Source: Paralichthys olivaceus (lineage: Eukaryota; Chordata; Actinopteri; Pleuronectiformes; Paralichthyidae). Taken from it: a stretch of 64,000 nt of DNA. The stretch covers positions 928,001 through 992,000 of the forward strand of contig NC_091116.1 of the NCBI RefSeq assembly GCF_024713975.1, given 5' to 3'. This document shows positions 861 to 56,237 of this stretch, piece by piece. Position 1 is the stretch's first letter. The number at the start of each line of letters is the position of its first letter. The position numbers and the translations under genes are program-made. The notes below the pieces were generated by a model. That model was given only the letters and a program-made list of their open reading frames with translations, made no database searches and was not told the DNA's origin.

Positions 861-1154
861 TGTCTCTGCTAGACAAGCTTTTAATTTGTCTCAACTGAGG
901 CAGCCAATGATCCAGACACACAAACTCACAGAGTCGGTAAAAGCTGCTCCGCCGCTGTTCTCTGTCTGGGTTTTGTTTCCAGGACGACTTGTGTCATTGT
1001 CAGAGGCAGCGTGCTCTGTCTCTCCAGCACCAGAACGACAGCAGAGGAACAAATCTCTCTCTGTCATCCGTTTTTTGAGTTTGTCAATCAAAGGGCCTCA
1101 TTGCACGTCAATATCATGAAAACATCTTCTTATATAAATTCTTTCCCTCTCCAG

Positions 1155-2178
1155 TTTTACCCAAACCAGAGGTGACCCACGTGACCTCGTCATCAGGGAT
1201 CACCGAGGCCAACTGCACAGCCCAGTCCCGCCCGGCAGCAGATATTATGTGGGACATCGGCGGGGACAACCGAACAATTGGGCCACCCATTTTGTCCGCC
1301 TACGACCAGGGTGACGGCACGACGATAGTGACGAGCACGCTTCTCTTCCAGGCAGGGCTGCTCAGTGAGCACTCCGTCAAGTGCATCGTGCAACACCAGG
1401 GTCTGGAGAAACCCCTGACGGTGCCCCTCAACACAAAGGGTGAGGAAGTTATAGTGAATCGTAATGAGGTCGTAACTCGCATAGGTGTATTTTTATCCTT
1501 TTCATCTTAGCTTTTCATAAGCCACACTAATAAAGGCTTTTTTTATTTTTACACTGCAAGAGTGCCTTGGTTTATTTCCTTTTTTTAAACTAGAAAGGCA
1601 CTCGGAATTTAATCTGCTCCTAAAGTTAATGGGTTCTTTCTTCCACCAAGTTTCAGTCAAATTGGTTCTGTGATTTTTGCATATTTTTCTGCCGACAGAA
1701 AGAAAGACACCAATGAAAACGTAAACTTTTTGGTTTTAAATCAATATTTGTATCATCTCAAGATTTTTTAACATTTAGTTATCACACAAGAAAAATACCA
1801 GCCACAAAAAATAAATGTTCCCAAAATACTTTTACTACAGCTCGGAGAAAACAAGGCTTTTGTTTTCTCCATGTACATATTTGCAGCTATTTTAGTTGTG
1901 GGGTAATTATGGCTGCTTTGATGGGCTCCTGAATCCTGTAATGTCGCAGCGTACGAGAAGGATACTTTTTTGAGAAATGTTATTCTTAAACCATGTTTAG
2001 TCCAGATGTCATACATGTTCTTTGAAGCTTGAGCGGTGCCTTGGAGGAACTTTAAGTGTGTGTTTGTGCGTTGTAGTGAGTCCAGTCGTGGTGATCCTCC
2101 TCTCGGTGTGCGGGGTGGTGGCCGTCCTCCTCCTCTGTCTGTGTGTGTGTCTCTGCAAGTGCTTAATCTGCACAGACG
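1155..2178 (+). CDS. cd200: CD200 (OX-2)-like membrane glycoprotein, 3' part (Ig C-type exon and transmembrane exon)
   Basis: Two exons are seen: 1155-1439 and 2077-2178, each starting after an AG and ending at GTGAG, both in phase 1. The first encodes a C-type Ig domain. It has PKPEV at its start, a Cys in EANCTAQSRPA, a Trp in IMWDI, a DGTTIVTSTLLF strand and the second Cys in SVKCIVQH. This order matches the membrane-proximal domain of CD200 (TCSATARPAP..W..NGTTSVTS..ICQV in mammals). The second exon encodes VSPVVVILLSVCGVVAVLLL and then a Cys-rich juxtamembrane stretch (CLCVCLCKCLICTD). CD200 is a cell-surface ligand that restrains myeloid cells through CD200R. The V-type domain and leader should lie left of the window. 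I could not place the cytoplasmic exon(s) and stop, so the right limit is only the last exon I can support. Linkage to BTLA next door supports CD200 over other Ig-superfamily members, but another CD200-type paralogue is possible. Confidence 0.72.
1600..1695 (+). repeat. Degenerate RTE/SINE-like 3' tail fragment
   Basis: The stretch contains AATGGGTTCTTTCTT followed by CCACCAAGTTTCAGTCAAATT. This is the wording of a common fish retroposon tail, also seen at 29.4 kb and 30.8 kb in this window. It is short and diverged, with no coding capacity. The family name is from recall. Confidence 0.4.
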
Positions 2179-8100: not shown

Positions 8101-9183
8101 GCATGTGTCACATTGTGGTTGGTGGGCGATGCATGCATGTGCAGGTTTGGTGTGAGTTAAACGTGTGTGTGTGTGTGTGTGTGTGTCACATCGTGCAAGC
8201 AATGCACCTTGAAGCACTTTTACAACCACAGAAGTATCACATCCCACAGGCCAAAGTGCTTCAAACAGCCGTTAAACGTACGTTCTGCACATTGTACCCA
8301 GCGAGTGACACATGTTGTAGCTCGCTTGTCGTCTTTTACTCAGGCCGCAATGAAAAATAAACATCACAGAGATCAATGTGTTTTTTGTCACTGCATCACA
8401 AAGTTTCTGAGGTGGTTCCTGGTTTTAAAGGTGCAGAGCGTTTTGGTCTGAACTGAAATGCGTCGAGGGATGATCTTCTTTCCCTGCGTGTCTTTTCCAC
8501 CTGTATGTCTGCAGGTTAAAGGTGACGTCTTTTTTACCACCTCATCCTACAATAAGCAATGAACCGCTAATTCAGATGCATGTGCGAACATGAATGCATT
8601 ATACTGAATTTAGTGCAATGTTTTTGTTATATTATGCATGTGTGCGATGTGTAAATCCAAGATAAGCACGTTCGTCAATGTTAAAATGCTAAATCTATAG
8701 TCATATTCAATACAAAATTGCTAAACTAGCTCTGTAAACATTAAAGATGATATTTTAAATCAAATATAGCTAAATTGTTACATTAATAGTAGTTGAGACT
8801 ATATTTTTCTGAAAACAATCTTTAACAGTTGGGTGAGTCTGATGATGAGTCGAGGGGTATATTTTCTAATTTTACATCTTCAACTGTAAAATAACCTCCA
8901 TCCCTTCCTGTCATAGGTTTTTACATATGGTTAAGTGTGGTTTTATTTCTGCTTCCTGTGGTTTGATTTCTGCTTCCTGTTCATCAGTCGACACGCTGTC
9001 TGCTCCCGAATGCACCAGACACCGTGCCCAGAGAAGAAAAGCTTCAGTTCATCATCCACAGAAAAGAACAGAGGTGCAAACACACACAAGCAATCACTGT
9101 TAAAAGAGGTATTGGTACCGAATGTGTGCACGTAAATTGAGTCCTGCACAGGAAAGAAAACTATGAACGAGTAAATGTATTAC
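2179..9183. other. Long stretch with no supportable exon
   Basis: AT-rich DNA between the CD200-like transmembrane exon and the BTLA-like gene. The open frames here are short, lack recognisable domains and look random. It holds a small (TG)n at 8163-8186 and probably the unlocated cytoplasmic and 3' UTR exons of the CD200-like gene. One short run (GGTGCAGAGCGTTT) occurs near both 4636 and 8430, which suggests two copies of some old repeat. Confidence 0.6.
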
Positions 9184-9452: not shown

Positions 9453-11160
9453 TTAAGGCTGGCGGCTCAGATCTGGCGTGTTCCTGGATTGTCCTGCACA
9501 GCAGAGACCTTGGACAGAAATCAGGTGGGATCAGTTTCTCTTCTCAGAATCATGATAGTAAATATGCAGTGCATTTAATTGTTCTTATTGTATTGTGCCA
9601 TTTGGAATCTTTCAGGTGAGACCTTATGCTTTCAGTAGGTGGTCTGCAGAGTGCTGGTCACGAGGAATTAACCAATCAAATCAAGTCTCACCTCCACACT
9701 GTCTCTTTGGTGCAACGTATATCGCTATGACAATGACGACAAACAGCATGATCCCAGTAACGTAGCACGCTGATGACAAGCCAGTGTTCTGAGCTGTCGG
9801 GATTCCTGTCGGACTAGAGAGGACATTTGATTCAGCATCAAAGAAGCATTTAAATAAATACAATGAATTGCATGTGATACAGCATCGAATTAAGCTCTTG
9901 CCTGAGAGAGAGAGTCGTCCACCCAACTGTTTTGGCCTTGATATTACCTGAAAAACATTCAGCTTGAGTTTCCTGCATCAGTATAGTCTAGAAATCCTGC
10001 AGTGCAGAAAGCATCACTCACCATGGACAGAGACGTTGATGGAGTGACCCACATCATTTCCCACTCGACACCGATACAGACCTGAGTCGCTGCTGAGTAT
10101 ATTTTGGAATTTCAAAAACGATACCCCCTCGGAATGGTTGACCCCTTTCCACTCAGTTTTAATGTGACTGCTACTGCTGACATTGACGTGTTGAGCTGTG
10201 TTTTCCTCCAGCTTGTACCAGAGCACTGTTGGTGCTGATTTATTACAGAATTCAACTGTGCAGTTAATGACAAGGTCTTGTCCAAGGGAGATCTCATAGG
10301 CTACGTTGCGGCGTACGTTGATTATTGGTGTACAGTCTGATTCTTCACCTGCTGAAGAAAAATGATAATACAAGAGGATTAAAAATATATAAAATGATAG
10401 ATTCTTACTAACGAATGCTTAATGACAGTTGTTGTGTCGTGGTTGCAGGATCTCCTGCTGCTTTCTTCATATCGAAGAGACAAACTCCTGAAAAAGTGCC
10501 GACCCAACTTTCTAGACATTTTCCTTTGTTTGTGTCTTTTTAACATATTATCAACATTATTTTTATCATCCAAAAAGGTTTTTTTTTTTTATTTCCTCTT
10601 CTGGACAGTGTCGGTGTGTGTTTGACTGACGGTGACAAACTAAAAAAAAGTGTACCATAGAACCGGCATTTAACCGAACCCATTATGGTTCCAGAAAGGT
10701 TTGCGTAGTTTTTAATGTGTTGCATTTAGACCAAAGGACACAGTCATGTTTGTCGGGACAATAGGATGGGGACCTAACGTGGTTGTCTAATTTTATATCT
10801 TGTGGTTCTTTGCTGCGCCACTGACAATAGCCTGCAGGAAGCGATTGAGCGGAAACAAGTTTGTTACTGACAAAGATCGAGAAGTAACCGTTGGTTTACG
10901 TCTTTTTTAATTGAAAACACAGGGAAAGAGCTTTGTACTGTAAATTAAAAGAGGATGCAATTGGATGTCATCCCCATTTTCACCAGTATACAATTAAAAC
11001 AATGAATCCAAGAATTATAACTGACTCATATTTGTGATTACGACTCAAACTGAGGGAATGATGTTGAAATGATAAACACCAACTTACTGTCAGCTTCCAA
11101 CGTGCAGACAAGCATCACCAAGATAAAAACGGGAAGGATGATCAGGCCGTCAGGTCTCAT
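9453..11160 (-). CDS. BTLA-like Ig receptor paralogue, probable short-tailed form
   Basis: Proposed exons, read right to left, are 11160-11088 (leader), 10351-10022 (Ig), 9901-9692 (stalk plus membrane) and 9493-9453 (tail). All junctions are GT-AG and all phases agree, giving 654 nt or 217 residues. The leader starts MRPDGLIILPVFILVMLVC. The Ig exon has the BTLA pattern CTVEFC, VLWYKLEE and SGLYRCRVG. The membrane segment is around YVTGIMLFVVIVIAIYV, followed by PKRQCGG. The best in-phase tail exon ends the protein after NTPDLSRQP, with no tyrosine. Mammalian BTLA instead carries inhibitory tyrosine motifs. An alternative acceptor 9 bases or so downstream of a stop would give a tail with IYENESS, but its acceptor is poor. 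The Ig exon is almost identical to that of the neighbouring BTLA gene, while leader, stalk and membrane parts are unrelated. It is probably a tandem duplicate acting as a decoy or partner-dependent receptor; this function is inference. Leader and Ig exons are firm. The start of the stalk exon and the tail are less so. Confidence 0.65.
10016..10394 (-). repeat. Duplicated Ig-exon block, copy 1
   Basis: 379 bp covering the whole Ig exon plus a few bases of intron on each side. It matches 13386-13764 with only five mismatches: three adjacent in one codon (10302-10304) and two in the flanking intron. Similarity stops abruptly at both ends. Confidence 0.93.
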
Positions 11161-12402
11161 GGTGACAACGCTTCAAGAACCAGATGATCACCTCTATACC
11201 TCGAAGTAAATGACACGAGGAAGACTTTGCTTCCTGATTATGATTTCACTGGGGGGCTGCATCTCCACACACACACACACACACACACACTTTTTTCAAC
11301 CCTGATAGATAAAAAAAAAACTTTCTGCTTCCTCCTTTACAGCAAACGGAGTGAAAGCAAGCGTTGGCCCAACATAATCTCAATTCAAATCAAGCAGTCA
11401 TGGACACACATTATATTATATGATTGCACAAAAACATCACATTATTACATTCTTCTATTTTGAAGTTACAGAAAGATTACAAAAGCGATTTTTTACATTC
11501 ATGCAGTCGATATGATACAGGATGCAAACCATTACTGTCTCAGGTGTGATGTCACTCTGAAGAACATTTCAAGTCGTGAGGGTGAAGTCACAGTTTTTAA
11601 CAAACATCGCAAAGCAGGATCGCAAACAAAAGCACACTAGTTGTAAACAGTTTGTAAAAAAGTCTGTAACAATCCATTTAGTTTGGTAAATCACGCTTTA
11701 GCTCTACAGACGCTGAGGACTTCTCATCATGTCTGTGACGTTCAGCCCTCGTTCACTGGCTCCGATTGAAAGTGTTAAATCTTTAAAAACGGGACAAGAT
11801 TTTAGAAAATGCAGTTTATTTTTTATGAAATGTTTCTATTTCAGAAAAGTGGTCATTGTAGGTTCTGGGCAAAAGTAAGAGTGAATTAGTTGGGGGGTGT
11901 TTTCAGTAGCGAATTATCACACATGAATACTTCATACGGAGGTTTGAGTCACAGGTTTGGTTCTTACTCGATCAGTCAACCTTAGTTCTGTAAAATGCTC
12001 TCTGGGTATTTCCATAACTTCTTATTTTAAGTTCTTCTAACTTTCTTGATTTGTCAAACTTTCAGCGATACTGAGATGTGAGATGCAGTCGGCAGGAAGA
12101 GAAAGAACCTGTGCACATGCTGACATTTCCCTAATTTTTGCTCTCGTGTCGTTCATATTGTACATGAACCAACAACGTTCCCAGAACAGCTCTGACAAAC
12201 TTCATCTTGAGCAGAGAGAAGACCTGTGCACGTGTAGAGGGGGATAAACCGGCTGCAACAACAACCTTATCCTCGCTGTACGAGGGCCGTTGTAGCTCCT
12301 CTGTGATTTACCAGTTTGAAATGTTCCACTAACTTCTGCCAAATTCACTCGAGCACACGTCAGGACTGACATTACACCACATCTCCTGTGGTTGTTGCGT
12401 GT
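11161..12402. other. Gap between the two BTLA-type genes
   Basis: The stretch holds the promoter region of the BTLA-like paralogue (its ATG is at 11160) and the 3' UTR of BTLA (stop at 12403). There is a small (CA)n at 11264-11291. No other gene is seen. Confidence 0.55.
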
Positions 12403-15400
12403 TTACATCACACGAATAGCTGCGTATTCCGAACACTCCTGCGACCTCTGTGGCCGAGCGGCGGCCCCCGATGGCAGCCGATGGTTGAGTGCCGCGTACA
12501 CAACACTGGTCCCCTCCTCCGCAGCATTCCTCTTTCTCTTTCTGTCTTCCTTCACCTTGCTGTAAACTTGATCTCTTGATCCCTCGGCCAACTTGTCGGG
12601 TTGTGGGTCTTTCGGCGCAGATAGACAAGCTGGCGGGGCAGAGGGGCTTGCTCTCGGCGAAGGCTGGAGGCCGCCACGTGGGGAGTGGGTCTCGACCATG
12701 GGAATTGCTGCGTGCTGCACACATCCAAGAAAGAATATTCCATTGCATCGTTGGAAGGATTTAAAATGGGATGAGGTGGATTAAAGTGTGACATTTACTG
12801 GTCTTACCTGATTTTCACTTTGTGTCTCTTTCTTTTGTTTCCCTGCAAGATTTTGACGGATCGGTTATTGTTTTCCGACTCATTGATTTGTACCGCATGG
12901 TGCCTTTATTGAATTTCTTTTAAAACAGCTCACCTTTGCAGCATCGTATTGATACAGTTAAAACTATCACTATGGTGACGAATCCCACGGTCCCAGCAGC
13001 AGAGTACACGTACATCCACATATGTTTTAGGGGCTCTGGATCAGAAGTTCTGCTATCTGTAAGGATAGGAAGGAATTCATCTCAACTTTTGTGTTTAAAC
13101 GGTTTCATGATTCAGAGGAAGTTAAGCCTTACTTGTATTATTATTCGATGTGTGTTCAGCACCACCTATAAAACAACACAGGGCTATTGTTTTGAGGGTT
13201 TTTTACGACATGGAAATACAAGGGGTAAAATAAAGACTCAATATCTAATAATAATAATATTCAAGAATTTGATATCTGATATATTTTACATTCTGGATCC
13301 AGTACTGCTCTTGTGCATTTATCATACAATAGTGATTATTTCTTTTTTATCTCATCTTGATGTGAACACAGGTTTTTTAAGTCACACTCACCATGGACAG
13401 AGACGTTGATGGAGTGACCCACATCATTTCCCACTCGACACCGATACAGACCTGAGTCGCTGCTGAGTATATTTTGGAATTTCAAAAACGATACCCCCTC
13501 GGAATGGTTGACCCCTTTCCACTCAGTTTTAATGTGACTGCTACTGCTGACATTGACGTGTTGAGCTGTGTTTTCCTCCAGCTTGTACCAGAGCACTGTT
13601 GGTGCTGATTTATTACAGAATTCAACTGTGCAGTTAATGACAAGGTCTTGTCCAAGGGAGATCTCATAGGCCGTGTTGCGGCGTACGTTGATTATTGGTG
13701 TACAGTCTGATTCTTCACCTGCTGAGGAAAAATGACAATACAAGAGGATTAAAAATATATAAAAACATGTTTTATAATGAATGGTCATTGACAGTTGTTA
13801 TGATCCTTACATGCCTTGACAATGACTTGATTTGAATTTGCGAACACAAATAGCTGAAGGAACAGAAAGTAAACTGCACTTCTTATGAGGAACTTTAAAA
13901 CCACATCGATCAGAGGAAGGTAAGGGGGGTGTGGCACTTCCAAACTTAAAGGCTATTATCGTGCTGCACAACTTGGACCATTAGTCAAGTGGTGTGACAA
14001 GGATTATAGTGCTGGGTGGAAAGACATTGAGTGGGTGGTGGCAGATATTCCAACCCAGTCCCTGATTGGCGATTCAAAATTAATGAAGTCATTACAAGAG
14101 TCTATAGATCCAATAACTTTGCACACATTCAATATCTGGTTTGATTTTGTCAAACAATACAAAATAGGAGGAGATATAAAACAGATAAGTTGGTTTGCAT
14201 TTGATGACAGATTTAAGCCAAGCTTAAGTGACCACAACTTCAGGGACTGGGGTAGGAAAGGGCTCAGAGCAATGTGTACAGTAATGAAGAAGGGACATCT
14301 AATGAACTTCCAGGAATTGAAAAGCAGTTATGGATGAGGAAACAGAGACCATTTTAGATACCTGCAGTTGAGGGATTCTTTTGTGAAGGAAATACAAACT
14401 GTAAAAACCTTGAATGGTGTAATTGAGTTAATGATTAAGACATACAGTGGCTCCACATTCAGAGCAGTTTCACGGCTGTATCGAAACATCACAGACTCAG
14501 AAGCTACCTCTGCTCTCTACATTAAGGAGAAGTGAGAGAAGGAAATGAATATTAACTTTTACTTACTCTAGAAGAATGGCAGAATATGTGTGAAACACAG
14601 CACACAACAACAAGTTCAAGACTATGGAGGGAATTAGGATTGAAAAACCTGACCCGCTACTTCATTACACTTAAATTGAAGAGTAAACAAACTGGTCCCC
14701 AACATACATGTTGGCGATTATGTGGAGAGAGAGAAGAAAATCATACACACATCTTCTGGAAATGCCATAAACTGAACTCATACTGGGGAAATGTACACAA
14801 CATAATTCAAAATATTTTGGGATATGTGATACCTAGAGAATCCAGAGTGATGTACATTGGAAGATTGGATGACTATGTCCTGGACAGTATCTAACAAAAA
14901 TATTATTGATAACATGTAAAAAGCAATAACACGGAACTGGTGTAGGAGTGAACCACCTACTTTAAGTCAGTGGTTAGAAATCTTAAGAGAGGTATGTACC
15001 ATGGACAGAATGACCTACAAGCTGAGAATGAAGGAAAATGTTTGACACAGAGAAGAATCCTTGAAACATGACTGATCATGATTTATGTACCATATATTTG
15101 GAAAATGTATGCAGATAACCATGTTTACTATCCCTTGACTTTTTCACCTTTATTGTTGTTTTATTTTGCATTATAAAACACTTTCCTCATTTAAATTGTA
15201 AAACCTACAAAACCTCAATAAAAATTAAAGTTTCATAAAAAATCATCGATCAGTAAATAAGGTTGGAGATGAATGTTTTTTGCATGTTTATTAAATTTTT
15301 TATTACAGCTGAAATGATAATAATAAGAAGTAATCACTCGCCCACAGTGAGACATTATTAGATAATTTACATCCTGCCCACAGACCACGATAAGAACCTT

Positions 15401-15410
15401 TAAAGTCATA

Positions 15411-15476
<66 letters not shown>

Positions 15477-16163
15477 AATAAATTAATTCACACAGTCATT
15501 ACTGTTTTTAAAAGATAAGAAAATAATGCAGGTAGTTCTCATTGCAAGTGAACGAATTTAACTGGACAATCATGACCTCCGGTTTGTAATCAACACTCTT
15601 ATTTTGTGGGTACATGATGAGTTACATTTGAAAACTCATCACATTGTTTTATGCATGCTTTCTTTAAAGTTTGAGAGAAAATCTGTAATTGTTTCCATCA
15701 AGCACCCACATGTGTAAAAACACTGTCTAGAGGGGTTTTTTGGGACCTGAAACTATGTTTATTTAAATTTCTCAGTTCATTTCAAAATTCCCCGATTTTA
15801 AAGACAAGTCATGCTTTTCATGCTTGAGGCAGAATCATGCAGATGGAGTTTGGCAAATAGATATATGCCTACTTTGTCTTTCCAAAAATCTGAATCCAGT
15901 GTGGACTTGAGCGCAGCACTTCTAAGTTCAACACCTTCAGAGAAATCTGGCCTCCGACCCCTTTGGAAAGGCTTCAGATTACAATGCTCTCCAGACAGAA
16001 TAAAACAAGAATAAACACTGCTTCAATGGACAGAAGAACAGCGCCACAGAAATCCTGAGACAACACGATACACAAAAATTAACTTACCGCCAGCGTTTAA
16101 GGTGAGAACCAGCGCTGCCCAGAAGGACACATGCAGGGCGCTGAACCAGTGGTGAGGCCTCAT
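12403..16163 (-). CDS. btla: B- and T-lymphocyte attenuator (BTLA), complete
   Basis: Five exons, read right to left: 16163-16088 (leader), 13721-13392 (Ig), 13056-12934 (membrane), 12842-12808 and 12714-12403 (tail). All junctions are GT-AG and in phase. Total is 876 nt or 291 residues, against 289 in human BTLA. The leader is MRPHHWFSALHVSFWAALVL.. (1-25). The Ig domain covers about 27-135, with Cys in NCTVEFC and YRCRVG. The membrane helix is at about 148-172. The tail carries QVYSKV (Tyr239), VVYAALNH (Tyr261, ITIM) and CSEYAAIRV (Tyr285, ITSM-like). These match the human IVYASLNH and TEYASICV motifs in order and at the same end of the protein, which makes the identification firm. BTLA binds the TNF-receptor family member HVEM and recruits SHP phosphatases to dampen lymphocyte activation. 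The ATG at 16163 was chosen because it directly precedes the hydrophobic leader; an in-frame upstream ATG would precede it with hydrophilic sequence. Intron 1 holds a LINE insertion. Confidence 0.9.
13386..13764 (-). repeat. Duplicated Ig-exon block, copy 2
   Basis: Partner of the block at 10016-10394. It contains BTLA exon 2 and its splice sites. The other exons of the two genes do not align by eye. Confidence 0.93.
13914..15243 (+). mobile_element. 5'-truncated L1-like LINE with target-site duplication
   Basis: The element is flanked by the 10-bp direct repeat CATCGATCAG at 13904-13913 and 15244-15253. Its left part reads GGVALPNLKAYYRAAQL, the conserved region downstream of the reverse transcriptase in L1-type ORF2. 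The right part encodes CGEREENHTHIFWKCHKLN, the C-terminal Cys/His motif of L1 ORF2 proteins. Several stops and frame changes (for example at about 14336 and 14535) break the frame, so it is dead. The 3' end is A-rich with AATAAA near 15220. It is inserted antisense in BTLA intron 1. Only the C-terminal part of ORF2 is present, as expected from incomplete reverse transcription. Confidence 0.88.
15413..15470. repeat. (CT)n(AT)n microsatellite
   Basis: A run of CT units joins an AT run in BTLA intron 1, just downstream of the LINE insertion. Confidence 0.95.
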
Positions 16164-16879
16164 GATGGGATCTCTGGTGAAGCCTCCTGTCATCTTTCGA
16201 ATATGCTCCTCAAATGCATCATTATAGAGAACTACATGCTGTGACTGCACCTGCTGCTTCCTCTTTCTCTTTGCATCTTTCCCCTTGAAACGAGGGGCGT
16301 TGAATGTACTGGAGGTGAGTCAAGATCAGTGGGTGGTCTTGGTTCTGCAAATGCTGCAGGTCCAACACGGTTCACAAGGTTTCAGGCTTTCCCTGTCACT
16401 TCCTTATCATTTCTGACTATATTGTTTAAGTCCTCGCACCTTTACGTCTTCTTCTTTGCTGACAGTGTTTTCAAGCTGACTCCCCCCCCCCTTCCTCTTT
16501 CCTCCATCGTGTGCATCTGCAAACGTGCACAGCTGTGTGGTTTCAGCGGAGAATGTACAGTGCACTGAAGAGGAGAGGGGATGCTGTGGCCTCTTGAGCT
16601 CTGATGCCCACTCTGATGTTTGTTTGTGAGTGTGTGGTTACTATAAGGCAACACCTTCCGTCTTATCGACCTATGAATCTTTCAGGTTCCAAAGAGCCCT
16701 CTAATCTTAGATGACTTGTTACTGCTGTAGTTAACTTCTGGAAAAAGTTGCATCGTCATTTTTGAGAATCTAAAATGTGATTCTTATGATGTCAGGGTTG
16801 AATAGATGCGACTTGAGCTGTATTAAGGGAAAAGTAGGACCACAATATATGCCACAAAAAGTCAGGAGATCTCAACCAC

Positions 16880-17745
16880 TTTCAGAATCAGAATCAGAAT
16901 CAGAATCAGAATTCTTTTATTTGCCAGGTATGTTTGCACATACAGGAAATTGCCTTGGTGTCGTTGGTGCACTACTTATGTACATAAAACAACAATATAA
17001 GAAACAACAATATATAAGAAATTGAATAAAATAAAAATAAAATAAAATAAAATAAAATAAAATAAAATAAAATAAAATAAAATAAAATAAAATATAGTAT
17101 ATACATATATACAGTAACAGAGTAACAGGGTTATGGGCACGTGCTGTGCGAAGGTGCAGAGATTGGTGATAGTGCCAGTAGTATATAATAAATTATAAAT
17201 TATGTGCAGGGGGTGGGGTGTGGTGGGGTAGAGTCAGTGCGGTGCAGAGTCAGTGTGAAGCAGGGGGCTTGTTTGTGAGCCCCACTGCCACGGGGAAAAA
17301 ACTGTTCAGATGGCGAGAGGTTTTAGTCCTGATGGCCCGAAACCTTTTTCTGGAGGGAAGTCTCTGGAACAGGTGGTGACCGGGATGTGAAGGATCAGCA
17401 ATGATCTTGCCTGCTCTCCTACTGGTCCTGGAGTGGAACAGGTCCAGGAGGGCAGGCAGGTCACAGCCGATGACCTTCTCAGCTGACCTTATGATCCGCT
17501 GCAGTCTGCCCTTGTCCTTGGCAGTGGAGGCAGCGAACCAGACGGTGATTGATGAGGTGAGGATGGACTCAATGATGGCTGTGTAGAATTCAACCATCAC
17601 TTTCTGCGGCATGTTGAATTTCCTCAGTTGCCGCAGGAAGAACATCCTCTGCTGGGCCTTCTTGGTGATGGAGGTGATGTTCTCCGCCCACCTCAAGTCC
17701 TGTCCTTTCACTATTTTCATGTAAGTAAAATGTTTTCTCTTTAAG
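16880..17745 (-). mobile_element. L2-like LINE fragment, 3' end
   Basis: A minus-strand frame from 17720 to 17250 encodes an uninterrupted C-terminal part of a non-LTR retrotransposon ORF. Recognisable pieces are LRQLRKFNMPQKVMVEFY, ESILTSSITVWFAAS, IIRSAEKVIGCDLP, DPSHPGHHLFQRLPS and FFPVAVGLTN, in the order typical of fish L2/Maui-type elements. A short 3' region follows that contains the AAAAT run. The element ends at about 16880 in repeated TGATTC units (read on the minus strand), a hallmark of L2-type 3' ends. The 5' part is missing. It lies between the BTLA leader exon and U2AF1. The clade assignment is from recall and could be a related clade. Confidence 0.75.
17030..17093. repeat. (AAAAT)n pentanucleotide microsatellite
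   Basis: About 12 consecutive AAAAT units inside the 3' region of the L2-like fragment. Confidence 0.93.
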
Positions 17746-18094
17746 CAACAGAAATAAATGCAAATAAAAAGATGTTTGATGATTTTATTTCATTTAATTT
17801 ATTTAATTTATATTTTTCTTAATAATTATCATCATAACTTCTATTTCGTTGATCTACTTTGTTGTCCTTTTTGTAATTGGTACTATTTTAGTTCTATGTT
17901 TGTCTCCTCATCGGCCGTTTTACTAAAATTGTTGTTATGTGTTTTATATATTTTTTTATATTCAAAAGGATCAATAAGAAGTGATGTGGAAAGAAAAAAA
18001 AAGGATAAATCTTTATTTTTATATAGGGTCTATATGGAAAACATATTTTCTGTAGCAACAGCGCAGACGTGTGGCGCTCAGGGGAAGTGCAATC

Positions 18095-18158
18095 CGAATG
18101 CGCATGCGTGCTCTGTTTGCGTCATGACGTACATTAGTACGTCCGCGACGAGCCGAAA
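18095..18158 (+). promoter_or_regulatory. U2AF1 core promoter and 5' UTR
   Basis: A palindromic NRF1-type site (TGCGCATGCGT) lies at 18099-18109, and a CRE-like TGACGTAC at about 18124. Local GC and CpG content rises just before the ATG at 18159. There is no TATA box. This fits a housekeeping promoter; the exact start of transcription cannot be seen. Confidence 0.6.
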
Positions 18159-21100
18159 ATGGCGGAGTACCTGGCGTCCATTTTCGGCACAGAGAAAGAC
18201 AAGTAAGTTTATTGAACATTTGTCGCCGTGGTCTCCTTCGTGGTGGGTTTAACGTGAAGTGTGTTGGCAGCGGCTCCTCCCGGTTCACTCAGGGGCCTCG
18301 TTATCACCGCAGCGCCGCTAAATGCCTCACACAAGCTAACATTAGCAACAGGAAGCTAACGCCGAGCTAACGCATTGAATGAAACTCATTAACACACCAG
18401 AGCTAACTTGCAGCCACTGTCAGATGTTTGCTATCGCACAGAATTCTCACTGTGTCTTTGGTGCAAACGTGAATAGGAGAAGCACTTTTAATTTTTTTAC
18501 ATGTTTTAAAACCCACAGGGAGCGAGAGGCTTGGTTAATAAATGATGTTGTTAGCATAGCTGCTGCTTCGCTCAGGCAGATGAGAGCCTCCTACACGTTT
18601 GAGAGTGTGAAACTTTTCACAAGTTGCTGAATCAGCTGTGGATGTGTGGTCCTTGTGTAATTCTAACAGCAATGTGGTGGACATCATGCTGCCCTGTTGC
18701 CCTAAACCTTTAACTCCAGAGGTTTGAAGGGATCTATTGGCAGAAATTAAATACAAAACAATCCTAGTGATGTTTTCACTAGTGTTTCATCAACATTGAT
18801 CCGAATGGGTTTTTTTTTTACCCTAGAATGGGCTCTTTCTATTCAAATACTTTATATTTACATCAGGAGCGGGTCCTCTCTATGGAGGCTGCCATGTTTT
18901 TTTACAGTAGCCAACACTAGACAAACTAAACACCTTTTGAGTCCTTCATGTTTGGAAGGGGAGGGTGACGTGAGGGGTGTTCAGCTGCAACATAAAACTG
19001 AGTTCTACACTCTGAAACTTTAAAAGATGATGCTATTCTTTCTCTTCCAGGGTCAACTGTTCCTTCTATTTTAAAATCGGAGCTTGCAGACATGGAGACC
19101 GCTGCTCGAGATTGCACAACAAACCAACCTTCAGCCAGGTGAGGATCCCACCAAAGTTCTCCCCCTAAAACAAAGGCTCTATTCTGCAGGATTGACACCT
19201 CGCTGTTAGCCACAATTTCACTCAGAGCGTATACATCCGCCAAGTCCCAAATGTCACACACACCCATAGATATCAGTCCCCTAAATGTGCCTGATTCATT
19301 TCATCTACATCCATGAGTTACTCCCTGAGAAATTGGTGTTTAATGCACCCAATCTTGCAATCTTCAACAAAGAAGCAACTCCTGGATCCCCACTGAAATG
19401 TCTGGGGTGCTTCCCTGACCCATACATCATCGTCCCTCTAGGTTTTGTGGTAAAAGGCATACAGATCTGATCTGTTTGAGAAGTGTACACGGTTAAGTTT
19501 AATTTGACAAATTTGCTATGATGTCTTCACAGCAAAAAGCCAAAGTGTTCATGTGTTTTAGATATATCTTCAAGTTTTAATTATTAAATATTAAGTTTTT
19601 GGGGGTGCTTTACTGAATATAAGTGGAATATAGTTGAACACAAATGTCAAAGTCAACCTTTATTGTCATTCTGCCATATGTTATTGGATCTATAGGATGT
19701 GAGTAGTGCAAACAGGAATAGTAAAAAAATGGATTGAGAAGTGAAAAGCAGATGTGGTATGGTAGCAGTGTTTGCAGTAAAAAAGAAACAGCTGCAAGGG
19801 CCTGTTCACAGGATATATAATTTTGGCCTCAGGAGGATGTCATACCTTATCTGACGTGTAATCCTCATTGTTTTCTTTTCTTCAGATTCTTGGCAATGAA
19901 GGATCTTGTGCCTGCATGACTGTCAGAATGTAAACAAGCTAAAATAGAAGTTGTTGTAATCAGAAATGGCACAAAACTATCACACAGCCCTGTCTGACCA
20001 CTGTTTTCTTTCTCTCCTCTGCAGACCATCTTGATTCAGAACATCTACCGAAATCCCCAGAACAGTGCACAGACCGCAGATGCTTCACGCTGTAAGTTGA
20101 ACATAAATTGCCTGTTTCTTTAAAATAGAGTTCACGTCTAGTTGAGTGACAATGGAGGCCTCATAATCTCTCTACTGTTCAAATCATTCATCTGTTATCA
20201 CCTAAAACCAATAGACCCTTTTCACGGCAGCCAGTTTGACATGAAATAGTAGGATGTAACACAGGTGTTACATTCATTTATGTGTTATACCCAAATACGA
20301 CGGAACCTTCATCAATGTGACTAGTAACACCTCTGTTTACCTACTATTTCAGGTCAAAATGGCTGCCATGAAAAAGCTGTATAATAAGCACCAACTCCTC
20401 CTTCTTCCTCCGCTGTGTAGCTGAAGCCTAAGGAACAGCACCCACAGATAATGGAACAATGCTACTCAAGTGTCTGTGTTTGGTGTGTACACAGAGTCCA
20501 GTGTAGTAGAGCTGAAGTAGAACTTATTGTACAGATACTGTAGGTGTATAATGGAGGGGGAGGGCTTCCTGTGTAATGCCTTCATATTGCTCTTGACACA
20601 CTTGGGTCCTCTACCAAGACATCTGTTTTATTGCATTTTACCTTTCACGATTTTATTGGTAATATAAGTCTTGAACGATCCGAGTCTGACCCCAACTCTA
20701 CAGGCATCAGTTTTGTCTGTCCTTATCCAGAGGCAGTGAATGTGAGCTGCACTGAGTTTATGTTATTTGTCCCTGACATGCATGGTAATTGCTTGTTTTC
20801 CCAGAGTACAGACATGTGCAGTGTAAAAAAACAAAAGAAAAAGAAAAGACAAATCAGTCCAGACAACTGATCTGAATCATCATGTGTTAGATTTTTCTTG
20901 TTTTTCATCTCCATAATAAAACCTTTGGTCAGCTGTTGCTATGGAGCTAGCTAGACTATACAGCCTAACGTATTGTCTTTCAATGCCCTTCTTTATTCAA
21001 AGGGACCTTAAAGCAGGCGAAAACCATGTTAACATCTTCTGAGCGATCTACAAAACTGTGAAGGGTTGCAATGAGCTTCCCCTGTAATAAATGACAGCTC

Positions 21101-24100
21101 CGTAATTTTTCAGGTATCCTGTGAATGCAGTTTTGTCCATCACATAATTAGCTGGAGAGCAGTGCCGTTTCCTGACAGCAAAATATCTAATCACATATTT
21201 TTTCCTCCCCAGCTCTATATTTGGTTGGATTCCATATCACAGAAGTTTACGTTTTGTATTTCAGACCATTTCCCTCTTGAACATTTACCTTCATAACCTT
21301 CAAAACTCAAGTCTGCTGGTGGTTTGCACTGTAAGTTCTCCCTTCATCTGCAGGACCCTCCAGCACTGACCACTTGATGCACTGTGTCACACCTCCCCAC
21401 ATAAATCTGGTTGAGTGTAGTAATATGTCCTCTTGATTTCCTGCAGTTAGAATAACTGGCCTCATGCTTTTTTGCATGTTTCCTTGTCAAATGTCCCCGA
21501 GTCTATGTGGTGCAGTAGAGTGCACAGGACAGCTTCGGTGTCAGATCCTTTGGTACAGATGTGATAGACTATGTAGGCTATAATTGACTCACTCTTCCTG
21601 TGTTGCTTCCTTTGCACTCAGCAGTTTCACATTAGGTGCATTTTATTTGCTTCTAAATCTGAAAGCTAGTGTCGTCTTCAACTACTTCCTTTATGAAATG
21701 GTGAACCCAACAATGGTGTGGTATTACATCATGGCCCCTAAAATGTCATTATTTAAACAAATATTTCCCCCTTTGTTTGGGGAAAAAAACCACAATATAT
21801 CTCTGTCCATACGATAACACAAAAAACGCCAAACTCTCAAACAAGCATGTTTGGCCAGTAGGTGGCGATAAAGTCTATATCAAGGATGAACAAAGACCTG
21901 TGTTTAAAATTTTTTTAGTTTAATCAACTGAAAAAAACAGTTTGTGTGTGGACAAGAGGCTTAATTTTACAAAATATCCGCATGAGTGTGGACAGGGCCT
22001 GAGAGGGGTCAGCTGTAGGTTTGCCTCGGTGAAGTAGGTCAAATTACCATATGAGAGAGACAAGCATCCAGTAATACGCAGAATTACCTCTTTGAACCAT
22101 GTTTACAGGTAACATTTATACGAGTGTAACTACCATAGCACGAAGCATCATGCTATGTTGTTACAGTTAGTTTTGTCCATTGAGATATTATGAAGTACAT
22201 TTAAACATTTTCTCCAAACACTTGTAGCTTTGCCTTGACTGTCTCTTGTTGACATTTGCAGGTGCCGTCAGTGATGTGGAAATGCAGGAGCACTATGATG
22301 AGTTCTTTGAGGTGAGTGACCTTTTGTGCTTGTTACTTGTGTCCATTCCACATGTTGCAGGACACAACCTCACTGCTGCGTTATCTGCCCCTTGTGACAC
22401 TTTGTTGCTGAAAGGTTCAACACTTTCTTGCCACTTGCCAAAATGTGTCCAGCTTTTTGCTGACGCAAGAATCCTTTATTTGGTCTGAAGCAAATATTTA
22501 CACAGCACGAGCTGGAAAAACTTGACCTCATGGAAAATTTGGGATAAAGTTAATGGAAAAAAATAGATTGATTGTTGTTATATTTTAAAATAAATGTTGT
22601 ATTTTATATTCATGAGTTTGCTGCATGCCTGCTGCGTTCACACCAATTATGCTATTTAAATTTTATTTATGTCATAATGATGCCATTTGACATCATTCCC
22701 TTGTGATTATGAATAAATGATGAAAATGATCCATCAGATGTCACATGGGGAATCATTTTCTGATCATTATAAGCTTTTGATTGATTTATTATTTGTAGTG
22801 ATCTCTAAAAGTTTGGTAATCCATTCGTGTAGAATCCATACGGCTGCTGTGAGGACAAATACAAATGAAACAAACCAAGGACAGAAAATAATCATATAGG
22901 ATGGTTGATGTGTGAATAGACACTTTAACTGAATCACTCTCAAATATGCTGTATGTTGCTGTGAACGTGTTGCACTGGATTATTCATTTAATTCCACAGG
23001 GTTAACCCACCAGTCAACTGGATTGATTAATCCTTGTTGATGGCTTTTTTTTTAATTAATGATAAAAACAAATGGTTGGACAGTTTGTTTATTTTTCTCT
23101 TTTTTAAAAAACAGGAGGTGTTCACAGAGATGGAGGAGAAGTACGGAGAGGTGGAGGAGATGAACGTGTGCGATAACTTGGGCGACCACCTCGTCGGCAA
23201 CGTCTACGTTAAGGTTGGTGATGGATTTTAACTAACTACAAGAGAAGGAAGGTAAATATAAAAATAATTTAAAAAATTTAAAAGGTAATATGAGTTCACT
23301 TAAATGTAGCATTTAAAATCTTAACAAAAATGTTTTACTTTCATCTTAGAACTGTTTCATTTTTGCTCTAGGTACAATTCCATAAAGTTAATTATTAACA
23401 GTCTCCAGTTATTGCCTAAGTACAGTATCCTCTGCGTGTAGTTTCGTCGCGAGGAGGATGCAGAGAAAGCAGTCATGGACCTGAACAACCGTTGGTTCAA
23501 TGCTCAACCCATCCACGCAGAGCTCTCCCCGGTCACTGACTTCAGGGAAGCTTGCTGCCGCCAGTATGAAATGGGGTGAGTGACACGAGGAAAATTGTAT
23601 TTTATTAAGATTAAAAACATGATAACTGACTTAAACATAATGAAATACATTCAAATTAAAGAATATTTATTTTATAATGTTTCATTTCATAATTATTTCT
23701 GTAATGTCAAAGGTATTTCCTGTCGCAAGTCCCAGAACCAAAACTTTTTTTTTTATCATGGTTTTTTAAATGAAGAACCAACCCTGTGCTGACCCAGCTT
23801 TAAAACTCTTTGTCGCTATTTTACCATATTCTTATGCCGAAATACTGAACATTTAAAAATAATCAATAACCGAAGGTTGATTGTGTTTGAAGATCGATAC
23901 ATTTAAAATTGTTTTTGTAAAACAAGACGTACCTTTGTTTTCATTTTCATTTCTTTACATTGGCTGCATTGTACCAATACCCTGACAGAGGATTTCTGAA
24001 TTATCAGCAGCTATAAAGCCCCAGTAATAGTGTCCATGAACTCACATGTAGCTACAATGCAAAACATTACTAAAAGTGATGTGCTGCTGCGACATCAACA

Positions 24101-25018
24101 GCAGGTGATTCAGTACAATATCATAGAGGTGCCTGCTGAAAGAGAAATGTTGTATTAAGTTTATCTGAGAAGCAAGTTTGTGTTAAAAGGCTTGTGTGAT
24201 GCCACAGGATAAAGTCAATAAAAACTTGTTGAATCTGCAGCAAGACGATCCAAGATAAAGCTCCACTTTTTACCCTGTAACTAAAGCTGATTTACAAACC
24301 AAGAGAATCAGTGTGTTGGCCTGAGGCTCCAGAATATCTGGAACTCTGAAACCTCCAGGTTTTACTCTGGGCTTATTAAATATGAATATACACCACCTGA
24401 AGCACAGAATCCACTGACATGAAAAGGGCATAAAGCATTCACCTTGTTTGTGTGCTGGAGCAGCAAGGCACTGAAACCTCTCCAGCCTCACGTGCACGAT
24501 GTGGGATATCACATTTTCTTTTAAATGCAAAGATAAACTTCTGACCCTCTCTTTTATGAGTGTGAGTTTGTTTGCTCTGCCAATGAAAACAAACTGTCGA
24601 GGGAAAGATCTGATGTTTTTCTTGTCCCGCTCGCTTGCTCCTCAGCTTTCATAACTAAACCAGCTTTCCTTGTGGCACTGCCTCACCGAATACAAGGCTG
24701 GCAGGTTTTAACTCTTGATGGACTGTCTTCCTACAGAGAGTGCACCCGAGGTGGTTTCTGCAACTTCATGCACCTGAAACCAATATCACGAGAACTTCGA
24801 AGGGAGTTGTATGGCCGCCGGAGGAAAAGGTATGGGAATCCAGAAAGTGAAATTTTTTTTAGAGGATAGGTTTTAATTTGGAAATTAATCCTTATTTTTC
24901 TCCCTGAAGGCACCGCTCTGGCTCGCGCTCCAGGGAACGACGCTCCCGCTCCAGGGATCGACGGCGGGACCGTGAAAGGCGGAGGTCGAGGGATCGGGAG
25001 CGCTCTGGAAGGTTCTAA
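18159..25018 (+). CDS. u2af1: Splicing factor U2AF 35-kDa subunit
   Basis: Eight coding exons: 18159-18202, 19051-19138, 20025-20091, 22262-22311, 23115-23213, 23442-23575, 24737-24829 and 24910-25018. They give 684 nt or 227 residues with perfect phase. The protein starts [20 protein letters not shown] and follows human U2AF35 closely. Zinc finger 1 (CCCH) is at about 16-40, the UHM domain that binds U2AF65 at about 65-147, and zinc finger 2 at about 149-175. The arginine/serine tail ends [11 protein letters not shown]. Ser34 and Gln157, the human mutation hot-spots, are conserved. The glycine run of the human RS tail is absent. The protein recognises the AG at 3' splice sites in the nucleus as a dimer with U2AF65. 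Exon 3 (67 nt) encodes [20 protein letters not shown], the U2AF35b (Ab) version, and I see no second version in the neighbouring introns. Confidence 0.97.
19285..19485 (+). repeat. RTE/SINE-like retroposon fragment in U2AF1 intron 2
   Basis: It contains GAGAAATTGGTGTTTAATGC, then CACCCAATCTTGCAATCTT, CAACTCCTGGATCC and, near the end, CCCATACATCATCGTCCCTC. I recognise this as a widespread fish interspersed repeat. The family name is uncertain. Confidence 0.45.
19641..19700. repeat. Possible interspersed-repeat end in U2AF1 intron 2
   Basis: The stretch reads AAAGTCAACCTTTATTGTCA and then a short non-coding segment. Similar wording ends several fish LINE and SINE copies. It is weak because the other end is not visible. 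Confidence 0.3.
20214..20380. mobile_element. MITE-like element with ~35-bp terminal inverted repeats
   Basis: The left arm (about 20219-20253, containing CACGGCAGCCAGTTTGACAT then GAAATAGTAGG) is the reverse complement of the right arm (about 20339-20375, CCTACTATTTCAGG then TCAAAATGGCTGCCATG), with about 32 of 35 positions matching. The interior is ~85 bp without coding capacity. A TA-type target duplication is possible. It lies in U2AF1 intron 3. Confidence 0.7.
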
Positions 25019-25182
25019 AGGAAGCCAAGACTGTCCCAATGTTCCCACAACACATCCTTCCCTCTTTACCCCAGCAGTGATGACAGTTACTTTATTTTTG
25101 GTGAATTGTTCAAAGTGTTTTTTTTTTTTTTTCTTTCTTTCTTTTATTCCCTTTTTTTAAGACGAGCTTGTGTCGCTTTCTC

Positions 25183-25188
25183 AATAAA
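25183..25188 (+). terminator. U2AF1 poly(A) signal
   Basis: AATAAA about 165 bp after the U2AF1 stop codon, preceded by T-rich 3' UTR. Confidence 0.8.
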
Positions 25189-25199
25189 ACAGATTTGTA

Positions 25200-25900
25200 A
25201 CTCAGATGAACATTACTTTATTTCTTATGTAGTGATGTTTACAATTGGTTGGTGAGAGCTATTCTTACAAATACACACGTTGAAACCAGTGGGGAAAGAG
25301 TAATTACATCAAGTAACAGGAAATTTGATCAAATAAAACTTTAATTTATGACTTTTAAATGCCCCTTTAAATTCTCTAGATCTGGACACTGAAAAATATC
25401 AGTTCCCTCAACATGTCTGATTTTCTCCATCACGATCCATGAATTATTTTCAGAGAAATCAATAAACACTCTGTAACACAATGTAAAAGAAAGTTTCTGG
25501 CTTTAGTAGATGTTGCATTATCCAGTTGACAAACAAACAGACAAAAACATAACCTTGGTGGAGGTCATAAGAAACGTTAGAGGTACATTTCTACACAGGG
25601 TCCAAACATGGTCATGCTGACTTGACATCGTACCGAACAAATTTCCAGCCAATCAAACTGATCGATAACAGGGAAGGTTATCGATTATTCTTGAAGGTGT
25701 AGAAACACCTGTCTAAACACAGGAAATGACGTATCTCTACATTTTTGGGCAAAGGCCAATAGAAGAAACTAAGATTTAAAATGAACTCAAAATAATTTCT
25801 GAACAAAATCCTGTTTTTTATTGGCACGTGTGAACAACATAGAGGTAAACAAGTGGTCACGTGTTTACGTGCGGAGAGTGTTTGGTCAATAAAAAGTAAA
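25200..25900. other. U2AF1-CBS intergenic stretch
   Basis: AT-rich sequence between the U2AF1 poly(A) signal and the CBS promoter. Reversed RTE/SINE-like wording (AACCTTGGTGGAGGTCAT) at about 25551-25568 suggests an old retroposon remnant. No gene is seen. Confidence 0.5.
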
Positions 25901-25954
25901 CATGTGTCGTGCGTGCGCTTTTTCCCAGACGCCCTTTTGGATGGGAACCCCTGC

Positions 25955-26176
25955 GCTGTGATTGGCCGAGCGCACCAAACAGACGCCCTCACCGCAGCCA
26001 ATGGGAGGCCGCCGTGAATCTTTACCCACGTCCTCCCACGTATGTCGTCACGAAAGAATCCGCAGCCCTCGCGCGGACGCTGTTCACTCCTGCGGGACCG
26101 TCTCACCAGGAGCCACGCGCTTTCCCCCCTGTATATTTTCGTCTTTGAATCCAAGGCTTTTTGGACAAGTCACCAG
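25955..26176 (+). promoter_or_regulatory. CBS promoter and non-coding first exon
   Basis: This is a GC-rich segment with two CCAAT boxes in opposite orientations (GATTGGCCGAGCG at about 25960 and CAGCCAATGGG at about 25996) and a TATA-like TGTATATTTT near 26131. It is followed by an exon ending in CACCAG before GTGAGTGGG, so the donor is after 26176. The next compatible acceptor is at 29546, eight bases before the CBS ATG. The first exon is therefore probably 5' UTR. Its start is unknown, and alternative first exons are possible. Confidence 0.55.
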
Positions 26177-29100: not shown

Positions 29101-29289
29101 ATTAAGCCTGTCCTGTGTTTCCTGGGTTGTTTCATCTTTTTTGTCTCTCAGATCTAATGTTTAATGTTGAGATCTCCTCCACAGTGAATAAAACTCACCT
29201 GAACCAATTCTTCTACACCAATATGGGCTCAAACCCTTCTTTATTATTGAATTCATTTTCAGTTGTAAACCTTCACTAACTGTGGACAA

Positions 29290-29505
29290 ACTGTGCTATG
29301 TCACTATTTTTTCTATTTTCAAAAACCAGGTAGAACACAGTACTCCTCTTTTTTTTCATCAAGATCCACTTATGATGCAAAAAACACCTCTGGAATTTAA
29401 TGAGTTCTTTCTTGGCCCTTGTGCCATCCCTCCAACAAGTCTTGTGGAAAACCATTCAGTAGTTTTTGTGTAATCCTGCCTACAAACGGGAGTGAAACCT
29501 TAAAC
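29290..29505 (+). repeat. RTE/SINE-like retroposon tail before the CBS start exon
   Basis: It contains TTTAATGAGTTCTTTCTTGG, CCATCCCTCCAACAAGTCTTG and ATTCAGTAGTTTTTGTGTAA, the 3' wording of an abundant fish retroposon family. It ends about 40 bp before the acceptor of the first coding exon. A shorter relative is at about 30805-30840 in CBS intron 3. Confidence 0.5.
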
Positions 29506-29554
29506 TCAAATGTCAACGATAATAACATATTTCCCTGTTTTCCCAGGATAAGCC

Positions 29555-34775
<5,221 letters not shown>

Positions 34776-54300: not shown

Positions 54301-56237
54301 ATTTACTTTTACAAATTGAATTTGAAATTAATTTAAATGTTTTGTTTGAAAAAGTGTCTTAATCATTATTAAAGGTATTTTATCAGCTAACATGAGACAT
54401 TTATAAGCTATCTCCTGCTAATTCTTGCTGCGTCACTTCATTGATGCTAGTTCTGTGTGGCTAATAATGGTGATTAGCAGGTGCTAATGTGTCTAGCTGT
54501 AGTAACAAGTCATTTTTATTGAGAACTAATTTTAATAAGACTTGTTTTATTCTTGAACACCACATTTACTTTTACAAATTGAATTTGAAATTAATTTAAA
54601 TGTTTTGTTTGAAAAAGTGTCTTCGTCATTATTAAAGGTATTTTATCAGCTAACATGAGACATTTTATAAGCTATCTCCTGCTAATTCTTGCTGTGTCAC
54701 TTCATTGATGCTAGTTCTGTGTGGCTAATGTGTGTCTAGCTGTAGTAACAAGTCATTTTTAATGAGAACTAATTTTTTTAATGTGACTTGTTTTATTCTT
54801 GAACACATTTACTTTTACAAATTGAATTTGAAATTAATTTAAATGTTTCAGTCGAGAAAAAGTGTCTTAATCATTATTAAAGGTATTTTATCAGCTAACA
54901 TGAGACATTTATAAGCTATCTCCTGCTAATTCTTGCTGCGTCACTTCATTGATGCTAGTTCTGTGTGGCTAATAATGGTGATTAGCAGGTGCTAATGTGT
55001 CTAGCTTTAGTAACAAGTCATTTTTATTGAGAATTAACTTTCTTAATGTGACTTGTCTTAATCATAAACACCACATTTTAGTTTTATAAAGTGAATTTCA
55101 ATGCAACTATTTACTACTTCACTTAAGTTTTCTTAAGGTTTGGTTCTGTTTTTCTCCATGTAAGTAGTTTTTTCACACAGTCCTTTACTTTTACTCTTAT
55201 TTTTGGATCTGTGAATTTTGTAAACAACTGTGAAATTAACAAATAATAAAAAATATATGATTTATTAGTTCTTTGCTTGCTTTTGATCTAATGTTATAAA
55301 AACCTCTGTAATCCAATGCACAAAATGTATGGTTCTGAATGTTGGGTATGTTTTTCTCCATAAATACAGTATTGTTTGGTAACAGACTTTTACCAATACT
55401 CTTGCTTTTATTCTAAACCTTATTTTTGTTATCAGTGAATTTTGAATACAACTGTAAAATTATAAAACCTCTAATTTTTCTTCCTTGACAGAAATACACA
55501 GTAACTGGGGGCTAATGTTCAACTAAGGCAATGTACTCGTAGGCCTGATATGAACTATTTCACAAGGTATAAGAAAGTTCCATCAAAGGTCTTGTGTATT
55601 TCTGTGAACTTAAAGTGAATTTGTAAAAGCCACGACTATAAATCACTCCTATGAAGTTATGTTTTTCTTTTTGCCTGTCACTCCATCTGTCTCTGAGCCT
55701 GTCAGATGGCTGCTCTGTGCACTGTCATCAAGTTCACTCCGTCTCTCCGCAGGCCTCTGGGTTCAGAGGAAGGTTGATCTCTTGCAAGCTTGCTGTGGGA
55801 ACCGCAACATGCGTGCTGAAATGAACACGCAGCTGAGACCGTGGTTGAATGTTTAGGGCGCCCTGTGTCCATAAAAGGTTGTGTGGAAACTTGTTGGCAA
55901 AAGTAAATGGAGAAAGAGTTTTTCCTTCTTTAGTTTGGAATGTTTGACATGTCCATTGAGATTTTGCTTGTTTTCTCCCCCTCTGACTTTCTCTGATGCT
56001 CAGTTGCTTTCTTCGCTCCCAGGGTGAAAACTTGTGCTGCAAGGACTGACCAGCCAAACTAACCCCACAAGCACAGGAACAGTTTTCCCACTGGTTGACA
56101 GAAATTTTGCATTTGAATTAAAGGTTTTTCATGTGTATATCACATTTCTCTGGTCCAGTGGAGAGGTGAATCTGTTCATATGTCTTTAAGATATCTCTGT
56201 AAAATGTTTTTCAATAATTGCTAAGTATGCTATCTAC

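Follow-up and report, generated by a model that had tools for sequence, protein, structure and literature searches.

Two BTLA-type genes in tandem

The stretch of Paralichthys olivaceus DNA analysed here (the window; 64,000 nucleotides, positions 928,001 to 992,000 of contig NC_091116.1 in assembly GCF_024713975.1) carries two predicted receptor genes of the BTLA type, gene A and gene B, which lie in tandem on the minus strand, with B upstream and A downstream, and which share a nearly identical Ig exon. The gene models were built by hand using splice-site scoring and phase checks and are predictions from sequence; the splice scores come from home-made matrices. Gene B runs from 16163 to 12403 and would encode 301 residues, and gene A runs from 11160 to 9100 and would encode 185. 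All exon borders in both models are GT/AG, and the leader, Ig and membrane exons, which are common to A and B, join in phase 1 in both. The predicted exons are listed below, together with the two copies of the shared block, in each of which the minus strand carries an Ig exon that has an open frame and intact splice sites.

16088..16163, minus strand: gene B leader exon, MRPHHWFSALHVSFWAALVLTLNAG, ending in phase 1 (prediction; leader scan of 10400-30000)
13392..13718, minus strand: gene B Ig exon (phase-checked model)
13133..13165, minus strand: gene B stalk exon, phase 1-1 (model; no gene A counterpart found)
12934..13056, minus strand: gene B exon for part of the stalk and the membrane segment, phase 1-1 (model)
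12808..12842, minus strand: gene B first cytoplasmic exon (model; acceptor score low, 0.9)
12403..12714, minus strand: gene B last coding exon with VVYAAL (immunoreceptor tyrosine-based inhibitory motif, ITIM), SEYAAI (like an ITIM or an immunoreceptor tyrosine-based switch motif, ITSM) and the stop (model)
11088..11160, minus strand: gene A leader exon, MRPDGLIILPVFILVMLVCTLEAD, ending in phase 1 (leader scan; top window match of the gene B leader)
10022..10348, minus strand: gene A Ig exon (phase-checked model)
9692..9805, minus strand: gene A exon for a short stalk and the membrane segment, phase 1-1 (model)
9100..9143, minus strand: gene A tail exon, ending in LNLRAHIRYQYLF and the stop (model; acceptor score 7.7)
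8942..8947, minus strand: AATAAA, a possible gene A poly(A) signal ∼150 bases past the stop (sequence)
13386..13764, minus strand: block copy of gene B, comprising the Ig exon 13392-13718 flanked by 46 bases from intron 1 and by 6 from intron 2
10016..10394, minus strand: block copy of gene A, comprising the Ig exon 10022-10348 flanked by 46 bases from intron 1 and by 6 from intron 2

Ahead of the gene A membrane exon there are two candidate acceptors, separated by 8 bases. If the upstream AG were used (exon start 9813), the frame would shift and a stop would follow ahead of the membrane segment; the second AG (exon start 9805) gives the in-frame membrane form and scores 5.0, compared with −1.9 for the first. 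A tandem CAG-CAG acceptor is found at both Ig exon starts (10348-10351 and 13718-13721, minus strand) and would make the protein one residue longer or shorter just behind the leader. An ATG at 13788 (minus strand) lies in the intron in frame with the gene B Ig exon, and from it an open, signal-peptide-like start can be read without splicing (MTIHYKTCFYIFLILLYCHFSSA). A start of gene B at this ATG was set aside: the pyrimidine tract encodes such a hydrophobic run, and gene A has no such in-frame ATG.

Judged by its predicted protein, gene B looks like BTLA. In a PDB sequence search with its Ig domain the best single-domain match was mouse BTLA (PDB entry 1xau; 1.1e-06, 31.7 bits, residues 4-109), and three more BTLA sequences, of the human type, came next. 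Titin and DSCAM ranked above BTLA solely via summed multi-domain scores, with no single stretch passing alone. CD160 was absent among the matches listed, and this search was the only test made of a relation to CD160. In the printed alignment the four cysteines of the Ig domain align with those of mouse BTLA; in human BTLA the cysteines presumably pair as the canonical disulfide and an extra one, C34-C63. Pfam placed Ig_3 and I-set over the cut-off and V-set under it for the gene B Ig domain, and gave Ig_3 and I-set, again over the cut-off, for the gene A model. The Ig domain of gene A equals that of gene B save for one residue in 108 codons and is likewise a domain of the BTLA type, so that the earlier note's description of the two genes as BTLA-type stands. 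AlphaFold2 on the single Ig sequence gave a mean predicted local distance difference test score of 45.0, which was too poor, and the model was not used.

The two predicted proteins differ most outside the Ig domain. The gene B tail contains VVYAAL, which fits the ITIM pattern, and SEYAAI, which also fits it and has Ser in place of the Thr of the ITSM; the two tyrosines are 24 residues apart. Grb2-type motifs have the form YxN, and none was found in the gene B tail: the third, membrane-nearer tyrosine lies in DQVYSKV and reads YSKV, without an asparagine two places on. The gene A tail after the membrane segment (PKRQCGGLNLRAHIRYQYLF) has 20 residues; it lacks the length and the two tyrosine motifs of an inhibitory BTLA tail, and contains no pair of motifs like the immunoreceptor tyrosine-based activation motif (ITAM). 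The one tyrosine motif present, IRYQYL, conforms to the ITIM pattern, which was also matched by 361 of 20000 pieces of 14 residues drawn at random from the translated open reading frames (ORFs) of the window. The predicted membrane segment of gene A (SACYVTGIMLFVVIVIAIYVA) has no charged residue. It falls within one of the 17 ORFs, out of 1298 in the window, with a 21-residue mean hydropathy of at least 2.4, several of the 17 being simple repeats. The stalk is ∼11 residues in gene A and ∼27 in gene B.

In mammalian BTLA tails a Grb-2 motif is described together with an ITIM and an ITSM (PMC8043046). Gene B resembles mammalian BTLA (CD272) in its single Ig domain, which aligns over its length with mouse 1xau, the four cysteines included, and in a motif that fits the ITIM pattern, with another tyrosine motif after it towards the C terminus (PMC8043046, PMC12151841); its stalk is close to the 24 residues given for human BTLA (PMC8558838). 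It differs in its second motif, which is SEYAAI and not TxYxx[VI], and in the missing asparagine of the membrane-near DQVYSKV. Gene A departs further from mammalian BTLA, with no long tail and a much shorter stalk; on its predicted sequence it is a BTLA-derived paralog, and we have not filed it as an inhibitory BTLA. Several BTLA genes are on record in bony fish (PMC5413580, citing Bernard et al. 2007).

The shared block and its flanks

A base-by-base comparison of 10016-10394 with 13386-13764 gave 374 identical bases out of 379, which bears out the earlier note's block of 379 bases in two copies with five differences. A search for direct repeats of at least 40 bases in 1-30000 reported two families, this block and a CT microsatellite. 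In the gene A copy the mismatches lie at 10302, 10303, 10304, 10356 and 10366. The first three are the only mismatches in the 327 exon bases and all fall within one codon (GTA/ACG, Val/Thr), giving one amino-acid change across 108 codons that contain ∼71 synonymous sites; the other two lie in the 46 bases of intron 1. Protein conservation alone is ruled out as the cause of the near-identity: purifying selection on the protein is insufficient because the synonymous sites and the intron bases are nearly identical too.

The mismatches are unevenly placed. All five fall in 10302-10394, the 93 bases of the block that come first in the direction of transcription, and the 3′ part of the block (10016-10301) runs for 286 bases without any mismatch. 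If mismatches were random, the chance of such a clean run would be 0.059 with the three adjacent bases counted as one event and 0.005 with five events. A layered history of repeated conversion is only hinted at by this clustering.

The two edges of the block are unlike. At the 3′ edge the identity ends 6-7 bases past the Ig exon. At the 5′ edge the near-identity reaches 46 bases into intron 1, and in the 40 columns that adjoin the block upstream 29 of 36 aligned bases still match (∼80%). The earlier note placed the end of the identity a few intron bases beyond the exon on either side, which is correct downstream and incorrect upstream. The homologous flanks are

10395..10434, minus strand: gene A intron 1 flank, homologous to 13765-13800 (29/36 aligned bases)
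13765..13800, minus strand: gene B intron 1 flank, homologous to 10395-10434 (alignment and shuffles)

Shuffle controls here and below permuted bases, dinucleotide blocks or codons. Upstream flanks of 60 bases score 38, compared with 17.5 ± 3.5 in shuffles (none of 2000 reach the observed score; z = 5.9), and with flanks of 120 bases three of 2000 shuffles reach it (z = 4.5). When the upstream flank of gene A was scanned against the window, the best place was the gene B site (38, with 34 for the next). The step from ∼99% to ∼80% inside homologous DNA is the most telling observation made, and on the sequence it points to gene conversion between old tandem duplicates in preference to a transplanted exon, because a transplanted exon would be bordered by unrelated sequence at either edge.

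Inside gene B intron 1, not far from where the homologous flank ends upstream, lie open stretches (13924-14891, plus strand) which we take to resemble the C-terminal portion of a reverse transcriptase of the L1 type; against Pfam zf-RVT they score 17.7 bits, under the cut-off of 27.5. A resumption of near-identity past this L1-type insertion was ruled out, with 192 of 200 shuffles reaching the score.

The leader and membrane exons, which the earlier note had called unrelated, appear to be diverged and not clearly unrelated, with a similarity modestly above chance and with equal phases. In a gapped global alignment the leader exons match at 45 of 72 aligned bases, and one of 2000 codon shuffles reaches the score. 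At the DNA level the leaders score 37 (0/300 base shuffles, z = 4.0), and at the protein level no shuffle of 300 reaches the score either (z = 3.4). The gene B leader scanned against both strands of the window finds the gene A leader as its best match (45.5, next 43.5). The membrane exons match at 73 of 107 aligned bases (two of 2000 codon shuffles reach the score; 0/300 in the DNA test, z = 4.7); the gene A membrane exon finds that of gene B as its best place (53.5, next 52.5), and the 3′ halves of the two exons are mutual best matches in the window (48.0 versus 45.0 and 46.0 versus 44.5). For the stalk, cytoplasmic and last exons of gene B and for the tail of gene A, the other gene was not within the eight best places in the window.

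Origin of the shared exon

The best overall explanation, to which we give a probability of roughly 0.6, is that A and B are old tandem duplicates of a BTLA gene whose Ig exon was later converted, placing one ligand-binding domain on two receptors. A BTLA gene would have duplicated in tandem long ago and the copies would have drifted apart, gene B keeping the inhibitory tail and gene A ending up with stalk and tail both short. Gene conversion, in one round or perhaps several, would then have written the Ig exon of one gene over that of its neighbour, with 286 identical bases at the 3′ end of the block, 93 bases with five mismatches at its 5′ end and only ∼80% identity further upstream as the trace. 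For the exon itself, gene conversion between old tandem duplicates is the probable cause, as the earlier note had proposed at the scale of an exon; we infer the event from the pattern of identity, and it may have taken place once or several times and in either direction. What is found is a near-identical tract inside otherwise diverged homologous sequence: 374/379 in the block, 29/36 in the 5′ flank and no homology in the 3′ flank, with the leaders (45/72) and membrane exons (73/107) in contrast to the block.

Gene conversion needs a run of matching sequence. The Ig exon, with 327 bases, is the longest stretch common to both genes; the leaders have 73-76 bases, the membrane exons 114-123, and the introns no longer match. 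The tract would thus be confined near the Ig exon because the longest remaining homology is there. Since the confinement follows from the remaining homology, selection for the exon limits or for a shared ligand is not needed to explain it and is not by itself shown by it. A pattern scan for relatives gave 71 matches in genome contigs and 12 in viral contigs, none of them related, and none in phages, in collections that hold no fish sequences; among the matches listed in the literature search there was no report of conversion of BTLA exons.

Several observations weigh against this explanation. The downstream flanks show no homology (1464 and 1543 of 2000 shuffles reach the score), and neither does the rest of intron 1 (192 of 200). 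The likeness between the two leaders and between the two membrane exons lies close to noise level: the best match of the gene A leader is the gene B leader (45.5), tied with 8457-8566 on the plus strand; the membrane segments compared as protein are reached by 18 of 300 shuffles (z = 1.9); and the whole gene B membrane exon matches one other place better (54.5, 12287-12456) and another equally well (53.5), its score with gene A being 53.5. The clustering of the mismatches is weak evidence for repeated conversion tracts.

A rival explanation is exon transfer, in which a copy of the gene B Ig exon would recently have been inserted into a gene A that was unrelated or lacked an Ig exon, or the other way round, and would have given gene A its BTLA domain. 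In its favour, the 3′ flanks of the block share no homology, the leader and membrane similarity is weak and gene A yielded no homology to the stalk exon or the tail. Such an insertion, however, predicts even identity up to the edge and then unrelated sequence, whereas the 5′ flank is homologous past the near-identical block; leaders and membrane exons beat shuffles in most tests and the splice phases agree between A and B. We consider a transfer of this kind improbable. An assembly in which reads of a single Ig exon had been placed at both sites would likewise confine the near-identity to 379 bases, but it would not readily give five fixed differences, two of them intronic, a block edge that grades into homologous intron on one side, and at each site a fitting leader and membrane exon of its own in phase; an artefact is very improbable.

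Two further possibilities concern what became of gene A. It may be a decaying copy, a pseudogene or the source of a soluble by-product, in which conversion was neutral and no paired function exists. The frame shift and early stop from the first AG, the dependence of the in-frame reading on a second AG 8 bases on, the absence of a stalk exon and the short tail are consistent with decay, and soluble BTLA produced by splicing is reported in mouse and human (PMC8438243). On the other side, the frame is open through leader, Ig, membrane and tail with one choice of acceptor, and it is the second AG that scores higher; the predicted membrane segment belongs to the few strongly hydrophobic ORFs (17/1298, at least 2.4); the tail acceptor is good (7.7) and an AATAAA follows the stop. 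Decay is rather unlikely on this balance. The earlier note drew a parallel with paired activating and inhibitory receptors; in such a pair gene A would be the activating member and would signal by its own tail or with the help of an adaptor. Pairs of this kind typically combine converted ligand-binding regions with divergent tails, as described for Siglec-11/16 and CD300A/C, but the membrane segment of gene A carries no charge, its tail has no ITAM-like pair and the one motif it has is of the inhibitory type. The idea of such a pair was not borne out, and an activating gene A is very improbable.

Those systems are the closest parallels to the proposed conversion between the two BTLA-type genes. 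In primate Siglec-11 and Siglec-16 the V-set exon region is reported to be homogenised by gene conversion while the 3′ exons have diverged (PMC5701461), so that, as proposed for A and B, an inhibitory receptor and a paralog with a different tail share a converted ligand-binding region. There the converted region is described as ∼2 kb with 87.6-93.4% identity beyond it, and the paralog is an activating receptor; in A and B the tract spans at most 379 bases, the homology beyond it is faint and no activating feature was seen. In primate CD300A and CD300C, conversion is described as keeping an extracellular domain of ∼112 residues alike while the tails differ, as proposed for A and B (PMC12447643); CD300C differs from gene A in its charged membrane residue and activating role. 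Similar conversion work is reported for the CEACAM families.

Neighbouring features and proposed function

Elsewhere in the window, an exon at 1079-1507 (plus strand) has a C2-set_2 Ig domain (Pfam, 2.4e-06), which we take to be CD200-like; CD200 presumably lies near BTLA in human. An open stretch at 17253-17789 (minus strand) matches Pfam ALKBH8_N (3.5e-18), a model that, we assume, often matches fish retroelement remnants. Exons at 29552-31970 (plus strand), one piece of which matches Pfam PALP (6.5e-10), are presumably those of cystathionine beta-synthase. A tandem array at 52987-55098 consists of 8 copies of a 263-base unit with 93% matches, and 509 bases at 58125-58633 are repeated at 63492-64000, up to the window end, with 99.8% identity, with further related repeats around them in 57.7-64 kb.

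If the models are right, gene B would inhibit the cell on ligand binding via its ITIM-type tyrosines, and gene A would bind the same ligand without the signal of gene B, as a decoy, a same-cell competitor or a ligand for a partner receptor, in which case it would send a signal into the partner cell. We tentatively suggest that gene A may be such a decoy or ligand-only BTLA; a short-tailed form of this kind fits better than an activating role because gene A has no activating features. Its layout resembles that of CD160, an Ig-type HVEM ligand described with a short stalk and glycosylphosphatidylinositol or membrane forms (PMC8558838), from which it differs in an Ig domain almost identical to that of BTLA, making this a functional likeness and not membership. 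Membrane BTLA is discussed as being able to activate HVEM (PMC8558838), and zebrafish BTLA is reported to interact with PD-L1 in a PD-L1/BTLA axis (PMC12298638).

A more speculative and on the whole unlikely extension would be a paired BTLA checkpoint, in which an inhibitory BTLA and a short-tailed BTLA have their binding domain kept identical by repeated gene conversion. A dedicated gene, and not alternative splicing, would then supply the competitor or ligand-only form that tunes the brake, and the tandem AGs (9813 and 9805) would give secreted and membrane forms. A secreted form of gene A is possible through the first AG, with its frame shift and early stop; the soluble BTLA of mouse and human is reported to arise by splicing without the membrane part (PMC8438243).

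The general pattern of a converted binding domain with divergent tails is already known, as are multiple BTLAs in teleosts. If gene A is expressed, fish would possess a short-tailed BTLA encoded by a gene of its own and bearing the same ligand-binding face as the inhibitory receptor, and with it a clean system for the role of the BTLA domain without its signalling tail. With these genes a lymphocyte checkpoint receptor would join the immune receptors whose binding domain is homogenised by gene conversion.

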